Below, one piece after another: positions 24,999-26,729 of a stretch of 64,000 nt of DNA. The notes under the pieces were generated by a model. The model saw only the letters and a list, made by a program, of their open reading frames with translations, had not been told where the DNA came from and ran no database searches. The position numbers and the translations under genes were made by a program. This DNA comes from Botryosphaeria dothidea (Eukaryota > Ascomycota > Dothideomycetes > Botryosphaeriales > Botryosphaeriaceae), in assembly GCA_011503125.2 (NCBI GenBank), contig WWBZ02000002.1, forward strand, positions 248,001 through 312,000. The letters are read 5' to 3'. Each line of letters opens with the position of its first letter. Position 1 is the first letter of the stretch.

Positions 24999-25885
24999 TG
25001 CCGTAGGTCCGATCAGAGAGGCGATAACGAGAACGAGGACGGAGAGGGCGAGTGCGCGATCCAGGGTGACTGCTGCCGGAGTATCCGTCAGAGGAGGATG
25101 TAGAGATAAAGAATTGCTTGCTGGAACGCGGGGTCGTGGCGGTGGTTGCGGAAGCTCTTTTTAGTAAACCAAAAGCTGGCGCGAGTCATTTGCCTCCGAT
25201 GAGCGCAGTCTAGATCCGTATTGCGTCATTGATTATTGACCCCGGTGTCTCGACTTCTTTCCGATTCTTCGTGGGCTCCGGTTAATCTTTGAGGATTCCA
25301 AATGCACTATCGCATTTACGAGCTTACTTCTCTTGTGTAAGATCATTTTGGGGCATGTGCCACCATCAGTGGCTGAGCTGTCAACATGATTCATGGGACT
25401 TTCCCGAATAGGGTATTGACTAAATGTACTACTTACAGTGTTCTGGCTTATATGGAATCTTCGATCGATTCATTGTGGCTGAGTGGATTCGCCCTGTCTT
25501 GTAGTCCTCTTTCATCAGCATACACTGTTGCTCCATGTTCAGCCTGCTCCGTTGTAATTGAGATTTTGATGGTTCTTTCAGGATGCCTCCATACTCACCT
25601 CTCGGGATCTTTCAAAATACTTGATAGCAGAGATCAAGCATTGCAATGGAATTTCTTCTCTTTCATTGTTCCCTGAGGCTATGGATCACCCGTAGTGCTT
25701 CTCGGCACAACATTCAGGCAGCAGTTGCGGTGTCTGCGCCTACCCGTTCCCGACACCGCCCCAGCTGCTGCCTCCTCCCGAACATCTCCCCCGCACACAC
25801 ACCGTAACAAGTGCTGCTCACCAGAATCGGCAGGCCTCATTGCATATTCCAAGTAAGCCAGAATTCTTTCCATCAACAAGCAAGA
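24999..25885. other. Intergenic region, msrA / tRNA-Pro
   Basis: About 0.9 kb. It holds the msrA promoter and flanking DNA of the tRNA. No gene is supported; the 96-codon plus ORF at 25386 has no features. Confidence 0.55.
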
Positions 25886-26029
25886 GGCCTAGTGGGTAAG
25901 TGATGACCCTCCCCTCTTCACCACCACCCGACCCGACTAACCCCAAACCAGTCTAGTGGTTACGATTCTCGCTTTGGGACTTCCCTTCTAAACTGCGAGA
26001 GGTCCCGCGTTCGACTCGCGGCTGGGCCC
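25886..26029 (+). tRNA. tRNA-Pro (anticodon UGG) with two introns, one at an unusual position in the acceptor/D-arm junction
   Basis: Exon segments 25886-25895, 25952-25978 and 25994-26029. Joined, they give a full cloverleaf. The acceptor GGCCTAG (25886-25892) pairs with CTGGGCC (26022-26028) over seven pairs (one G-U). Discriminator C73 is as in eukaryotic tRNA-Pro. The other parts are the D arm GTCT...CGAT, the anticodon stem CTCGC/GCGAG with loop TTTGGGT, variable AGGTC, and T stem CCGCG/CGCGG with loop TTCGACT. U8, A14, G15, G18, G19, A21, T54, T55, C56, A58 and C61 are all present. The canonical intron 25979-25993 (15 nt) follows position 37. The second insert, 25896-25951 (56 nt), lies after position 10. 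It starts GTAAGT, has CTAAC at 25937-25941 and ends CAG. Without its removal no 5' acceptor strand exists. It could instead be a tRNA pseudogene. Confidence 0.75.
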
Positions 26030-26729
26030 TCGGCTTTCTCTTTTGCTGTCCGTCGTTCAGAGGGCGGTCATGGTGCTTTTTGCCACTAAGGTAGCATATG
26101 AGCAGTGTATGAACATTGAAGCTGAGTAAGAGCATGATTAGGGATTCTTCAATTTTGCAAATGAACAAAGACACTGGGCGATTTAATACCGGGTAGGGGT
26201 TAAATGAAGCGTTGCCGATTGAAGTGACTGACCTGTACGGCTTTGGCTGGTGAGTAGCACTATGCGGGTAACCGCAAATCATGTGCGATCGTCAGGGTGA
26301 AATCCTGAGATCATTCAATAGTAAGTATGTAGCAGGCATGATATCCCTGAAGATAATGCATAGTCTTGGTTCTGGTTCAGTGAAGATGCAAGCTGAACAC
26401 TGTAATAGACAACCACCCGATCATCATGCGGAAAAAGACAGATTTTGGAGAGGGTCATTCTTAATTCCCTTGGAAATCGAATGCTGTCCATCTTCAGAGC
26501 ATATCGACAAGAAGCCTGTACTCATTACGTACAGAACCAACTTGGAGCGACACCAGAGTGCACCAAAGGCCAAGTGCAGATCGAGCGACGAACCAAGGTT
26601 ATCAATCGCAATCGATTAAGTCTAATTTTGGAGCATCGTTAGATAGCCATGCCAGCCAAATCTATCCTGTGTACTCCATTCCTTAGCACCTCATGAAGGT
26701 GTATATTACACGAACAGAGAAGTCATCGA
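26030..26729. other. Intergenic region, tRNA-Pro / rpn11 3' end
   Basis: About 700 bp. Apart from the T-run terminator I see no gene. The short overlapping ORFs (26281-26619, 26445-26642) have no bias or domain. Confidence 0.6.
26041..26044 (+). terminator. RNA polymerase III terminator of tRNA-Pro
   Basis: TTTT, twelve bases after the discriminator base, within CTTTCTCTTTTGC. The first T-run of four downstream of the tRNA suits Pol III termination. Confidence 0.6.

Follow-up and report, generated by a model that had tools for sequence, protein, structure and literature searches.

The tRNA-Pro(UGG) gene at 25886–26029 of the window (the whole stretch of DNA analysed, 64 kb in length) carries an ordinary 15-nt intron after nucleotide 37. 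Direct reading confirmed that it also carries a 56-nt insert after nucleotide 10, as the original prediction had claimed. Judged from its sequence, it is very probably a working Pol III gene in which a U2-type spliceosomal intron stands together with an ordinary endonuclease intron, and at least 26 tRNA genes in the assembly, this one included, have inserts of this kind. Pol III would transcribe the gene from a start approximately 8–13 nt before exon 1, the spliceosome would remove the 56-nt U2-type intron, and the tRNA splicing endonuclease would remove the 15-nt intron. We infer the Pol III start, the processing order and the removal by the U2 spliceosome, the last because the signals and the size of the insert match those of spliceosomal introns.

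Structure of the tRNA-Pro(UGG) gene

The features of the gene, all on the plus strand and in window positions, are the following:

25843–25848 (+): TATA-like CATATT, 30 nt 5′ of the TCAACA element
25873–25878 (+): TCAACA, likely the Pol III start element, 8–13 nt 5′ of exon 1
25886–25895 (+): exon 1, nucleotides 1–10, with 7/7 acceptor pairs to 26022–26028
25896–25951 (+): extra 56-nt intron of apparent U2 spliceosomal type after nucleotide 10, GT-AG, with GTAAGT and a CAG end
25937–25941 (+): branch-site motif CTAAC, 10 nt before the intron end
25949–25959 (+): A box as it stands in DNA, 10/11 against the consensus, its RG coming from the AG of the 3′ splice site
25952–25978 (+): exon 2, nucleotides 11–37, anticodon TGG
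25979–25993 (+): ordinary 15-nt tRNA intron after nucleotide 37, not GT-AG
25994–26029 (+): exon 3, nucleotides 38–73, ending at C73
26008–26018 (+): B box, in the T arm
26041–26044 (+): TTTT terminator

The acceptor stem of the spliced tRNA formed the seven pairs (7/7, G-U counted) that had been described. The D, anticodon and T stems formed 3/4, 5/5 and 5/5 pairs, and U8, A14, GG and U33 were all in place. The bases directly upstream of exon 2 had been said to be unable to pair with the 3′ acceptor strand, and the acceptor score of 2.0/7 with the insert retained bears this out. The border can also be shifted by one base without changing the product, as had been stated; two borders are possible, one of which is GT-AG. 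The gene has the cloverleaf, the A and B boxes and the T-run of a functional gene, and it is predicted to be expressed.

When the upstream 220 nt were shuffled 3000 times, 18 shuffles equalled the observed cloverleaf score, none of them with GT-AG. Among 2950 overlapping stretches elsewhere in the window, 22 equalled this score, again none with GT-AG. The blind score based on the cloverleaf only gave three tied best cuts for the window gene, one of which was the GT-AG border. Rfam at the gathering threshold detected no tRNA in the 64-kb window. ARAGORN reported none in the window either, a result of little weight because its intron setting was not stated. The single match of a loose Rfam scan of the window was TCV_H5, which was taken as chance.

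Interrupted tRNA genes in the assembly

The assembly searched comprises 51.7 Mb and contains the window. A protein encoded in the window shares 97% identity with a Macrophomina phaseolina MS6 protein and 95% with a Lasiodiplodia protein, which points to a probable member of the Botryosphaeriaceae. At least 26 distinct nuclear tRNA genes with 29 spliceosomal-type inserts were found, covering ten anticodons and nine positions; the inserts outnumber the genes because three Ala-AGC genes carry two each. The spliceosomal reading put forward in the original prediction is supported by these 25 further distinct genes, which have the same kind of insert at eight other positions. A DNA search gave a second Pro-UGG gene with a 52-nt insert (GTATGT...CTAAC...CAG) between G18 and G19. 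A T-arm pattern added six genes (two Pro-AGG of the three found, three Ala-AGC and one Val-CAC). Patterns combining CTAAY, YAG and the T arm added sixteen (3 Ser-AGA, 1 Glu-UUC, 3 Leu-CAG, 5 Phe-GAA, 2 Trp-CCA and 2 Ala-AGC), and the T-loop insert of one Ala gene, used as the query, gave one further Ala-AGC gene. The Ala-UGC gene L093 (C29:2975294; C29:2975100–2975600, minus strand) came from the Rfam tRNA search of the genome, with 27.6 bits, below the cut-off. The duplicate copies L045 (= L043, 3018/3018 bases), L124 (= L101, 341/341 bases) and L120 (= L119, 299/299 overlapping bases) were left out of the 26. Long duplicated segments were seen in C3/C12 (offset ~1,699,480), C36/C78 (offset ~885,700) and C36/C69, and identical or matching loci suggest that they are haplotigs or recent duplications.

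Sixteen of the 26 genes, the five Phe genes included, were found by a pattern demanding CTAAY and YAG, and these features are biased there. The rows of the CTAAY patterns were mostly chance (45 vs 46 and 31 vs 40 in the reversed-pattern control). One CTAAY pattern gave 111 rows against 104 in the control, and genes were taken from the matches listed. The true interrupted genes were picked by eye from these rows. None of the 43 rows of a CTGAY pattern (control 28) resembled a tRNA when inspected by eye, and a D-arm scan of viral contigs gave no match. The pattern of T arm plus terminator had 197 matches; among the matches listed, a dispersed repeat dominated, and three new Glu-CTC genes (L108–L110) had no extra intron. 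This repeat, present at L111 (C1:12600–12760) and in many other places, has a T run after a B-box-like GGTTCGAATCC and is possibly a Pol III-derived element. The census is incomplete and 26 is a lower bound; among others, Asn, His and elongator Met genes did not turn up with the patterns used.

The genome Rfam tRNA search gave 63 rows, and the only two below the cut-off were interrupted genes. The Rfam tRNA model lists just these two of the 26, and some isoacceptors may therefore be missing from the tRNA annotation of related fungi. Run on L001–L089 with repeats skipped, the blind cloverleaf score flagged eight genes as better with an extra intron. All eight carry the motifs, and no other scorable locus of this set was flagged. 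The score failed to place some true tRNAs, such as L052, L062 and L081. A point against the reading is that the best blind cut lay beside the GT-AG border, not at it, in 7 of the 8 flagged genes, the window gene being the exception.

All 29 inserts had GT-AG borders and a GTNNG 5′ site; none of the searches relied on the 5′ site, and the borders were set by hand. GTAAGT occurred in 11/29. Among the 25 D-arm and anticodon-arm inserts, GTAAGT was seen ten times, GTAGGT, GTAAGC and GTCAGT three times each, and six other sites once. Each of these 25 inserts allowed 1–7 equivalent cuts, of which only one was GT-AG, and the Ala-UGC insert (L093) allowed a single cut, which was GT-AG. CTAAY was located 8–13 nt before the end in 28 of the 29 inserts, the T-loop insert of L121 being the exception; the distance was 8–12 nt in 25/25 D-arm and anticodon-arm inserts and 10–13 nt in 3/4 T-loop inserts. 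Because 16 genes were found through CTAAY, the nine found without it (L001, L002, L043, L048, L053, L054, L065, L067 and L093) form the fair sample for this motif, and all nine had CTAAY 8–13 nt from the insert end.

The inserts were 51–62 nt long, like the protein introns of the genome. In a wider, uncontrolled sample of protein introns chosen by motif and reading frame, 19/30 measured 50–69 nt and 14/30 measured 50–62 nt, and the branch distance was more scattered than in the tRNA inserts (n = 30). The protein introns of the window had been given as 51–57 nt. This held for 6 of 11 motif-selected, ORF-bridging introns (reversed-motif control, 3) but not for the rest.

The insert positions, worked out by hand in tRNA numbering, fell in three regions. 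In the D arm they were 10/11 in Pro-UGG (window), 17/18 in Ser, 18/19 in Pro, 19/20 in Ala-AGC, 24/25 in Val and Trp, and 25/26 in Leu. In the anticodon stem the position was 30/31 in Glu and Phe, and in the T loop it was 55/56 in Ala-UGC and 57/58 in Ala-AGC. None of the 29 inserts was at the canonical 37/38. The ordinary tRNA intron was also present in 22 of 25 genes and in L093. It was GT-AG in none of the 22, so the two kinds of intron stand side by side in one gene.

After removal of the inserts, the T stem was 5/5 in all 26 cloverleaves, and the acceptor stem was 7/7 in 25 and 6/7 in one (G-U counted). By eye, the intronless Pro-AGG gene L055 equals L053/L054 minus their inserts, bar one base in the ordinary intron, and the intronless Glu-UUC gene L100 has the exons of L099 with a different ordinary intron. 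Intronless Ser-AGA (L019) and Trp-CCA (L081) genes also exist, with bodies slightly different from those of the interrupted genes. The exons of paralogues up to nucleotide 37 were 100% identical in 28/34 pairs (lowest, 89%). The inserts were 44–64% identical against shuffled means of 43–53%, an excess that includes the common branch site. The exons are thus mostly identical and the inserts near the shuffled level, which suggests that selection maintains the spliced tRNA while the insert, its signals excepted, is free to diverge.

All five Phe genes found carry the extra intron, which the pattern used required. No nuclear Phe gene without the intron was among the 63 rows of the genome Rfam tRNA search, which scores best candidates only; Phe appeared there solely in AT-rich, presumably mitochondrial stretches of C14 and C26. 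A Phe junction pattern had no match in the genome at 0 or 1 mismatch. Its 57 rows (control 35) comprised two with 2 mismatches, which were not tRNAs, and 55 with 3 mismatches. A junction-spanning Pro-UGG pattern matched only Pro-AGG and Pro-CGG genes, and no intronless Pro-UGG gene. The check for other intact Pro-UGG genes, proposed with the original prediction, came out in its favour: the sole other one found has its own insert elsewhere, making 2/2 interrupted. As these searches gave no intronless Phe or Pro-UGG gene, removal of the introns is probably essential. If there is no hidden intronless copy, cytosolic Phe decoding would depend on it.

Promoter elements and T-loop inserts

TCAACA was present in 16/59 upstream regions of intact tRNA genes, against a mononucleotide-shuffle mean of 1.6. 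Of the 55 distances below 60 nt from TATA to TCAA/TAACA in these 59 regions, 28 were 26–31 nt. CATATT and TCAACA of the window gene have an arrangement of this 26–31-nt type just before exon 1. In 6/8 genes a promoter position score was higher for the exon-1 start than for an inner one, and 7/8 were below the mean of intact genes. When the best matches to the start motif were compared, the upstream one was superior in five of the eight genes, equal in two and inferior in one. A point against this start is that the A box of the window gene lies ~75 nt from it. The A box as it stands in DNA had the full score in 21 of 25 genes and 10/11 in three Ser genes and in the window gene, whose A box is split by the insert. 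Hairpins were predicted in the 5′ leaders of L046, L058 and L063 (Tyr), L036 and L040 (Asp), and L108–L110 (Glu-CTC), with no chance control. They were alike within some families, and stems of the GGCGG...CCGCC type occurred in 3/5 Tyr leaders.

The four Ala T-loop inserts (L093, L101, L102 and L121) split the B box. An exact B-box match (GWTCRANNC) was located inside the insert in L101, L102 and L093, and a match with one mismatch in L121. The other inserts had an exact match in 0/25 and one mismatch in 8/25, and shuffles gave exact matches in 0.6–1.5%. The match in L093 (Ala-UGC) overlaps the 5′ splice site GTAAGT (GTAAGTTCGATCC). The first 22 bases of the L101, L102 and L121 inserts differ at one place, with more changes in the remainder. 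L101 and L102 end in AAAAAG and L121 has no CTAAY, so these Ala-AGC T-loop inserts could be weak or decaying. Loose T arms and acceptor ends of tRNA-Ala with no tRNA body were found at L106:224–254 (C36:2124309) and L069 (C78:903782), ~200–250 nt downstream of the Ala-AGC genes L102 and L121.

It is probable, on the strength of the sequences, that these inserts form a second class of eukaryotic tRNA introns, that they are common enough in this fungus to make the spliceosome essential for tRNA processing, that the insert positions are filtered by the internal promoter, and that introns splitting the B box bring their own B box.

Alternative explanations and known systems

One alternative, which the original prediction had kept, is that the tRNA splicing endonuclease removes the inserts, which would then be ectopic tRNA introns like those of archaea, Cyanidioschyzon and nucleomorphs. 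Passages of PMC4090602 and PMC3978253 describe ectopic positions and several introns per gene in those groups, and three of the four central pairs can form in some genes here. This explanation is nevertheless very unlikely. The complete bulge-helix-bulge, on which the archaeal and Cyanidioschyzon ectopic introns rest, was absent from 26/26 genes, whichever of the equivalent borders was taken for the D-arm and anticodon-arm inserts and the T-loop insert of L093. Cutting by the endonuclease would also leave GT-AG, GTNNG and the nearly constant distance of CTAAY unexplained. We give a similarly slight chance to the interrupted copies being pseudogenes that arose by insertion and are never spliced, which had also been raised. 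Intronless genes exist for Pro-AGG (L055), Glu-UUC (L100), Ser-AGA (L019) and Trp-CCA (L081), the T-loop inserts of L101, L102 and L121 seem weak, and such insertions were taken for pseudogenes in the relevant passage of PMC4090602. The conserved exons fit this poorly: they are mostly identical between paralogues while the inserts differ, GT-AG is retained in all inserts, and the searches gave no further Phe or Pro-UGG gene. Decayed exons were not seen, nor, in this incomplete census, a gene that would make the interrupted Phe and Pro-UGG genes spare for decoding.

Transcription from inside the insert, or an insert that is a leader, with the contiguous upstream bases as the mature 5′ half, is the least likely explanation and hardly credible. 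The A box of the window gene (10/11 in DNA) does adjoin exon 2. However, the contiguous bases score only 2.0/7 for the acceptor stem, and the TATA-like and TCAACA elements stand 5′ of exon 1. The inserts of the other 25 genes are all in the D loop or further 3′, after the start of both the acceptor strand and the D stem.

The spliceosomal intron, which we prefer, has counterparts in other RNAs. Passages of PMC10484740 describe an mRNA-type intron in the U6 snRNA gene of fission yeast, for which an origin by reverse splicing is suspected, and its reference list includes Frendewey 1990, on Schizosaccharomyces U6 introns that hold a B-box match. As in U6, a spliceosomal-type intron would here be located in a Pol III transcript, and a B-box match is also found in 3/4 T-loop inserts. 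U6 is itself part of the spliceosome, whereas the hosts here are many tRNA genes with ten anticodons, most of which also have the ordinary intron. An 18S rRNA gene with a spliceosomal intron is named by title in the reference list of PMC11782384. It would likewise place an mRNA-type intron in a stable RNA of the translation machinery, but 18S rRNA is another RNA, made by Pol I.

Nuclear tRNA introns have so far been described as the task of the endonuclease, one per gene, and a passage of PMC8450103 limits eukaryotic tRNA genes to one intron. The inserts differ from the canonical 37/38 endonuclease intron in position, signals and probable machinery. According to the part of PMC4090602 on ectopic eukaryotic tRNA introns, these are rare and known from nucleomorphs and Cyanidioschyzon, and other D-arm or T-arm insertions are likely pseudogenes. 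The genes found here resemble those of archaea, Cyanidioschyzon and nucleomorphs in having introns outside 37/38 and several per gene. The tRNA section of the Macrophomina phaseolina genome paper states only the use of tRNAscan-SE. No report of spliceosomal introns in tRNA genes was found in searches of an open-access library, which covers few subscription papers and preprints. The intron itself appears to be an ordinary U2-type one, and the tRNA host appears to be new. If this is true, tRNA maturation would be coupled to mRNA splicing, and the spliceosome would also make tRNA. With such genes one could study the access of the spliceosome to Pol III transcripts, the gain of introns by small structured RNAs, and a possible restriction of intron sites by promoter elements.

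Introner-like elements of fungi, for which the abstract of PMC4457414 names Dothideomycetes, are a possible source of new short spliceosomal introns, and this could apply here. A term search of the text of PMC4457414 gave no mention of tRNA. Introner-like elements are near-identical copies; compared among the tRNA genes, the D-arm and anticodon-arm inserts are near the shuffled level within families. The copy-like exceptions are the T-loop inserts of L101, L102 and L121 and the 16-nt 3′ end CTAACAATCTCAACAG common to the introns of L099 (Glu) and L103 (Leu), which is perhaps a trace of intron copying.
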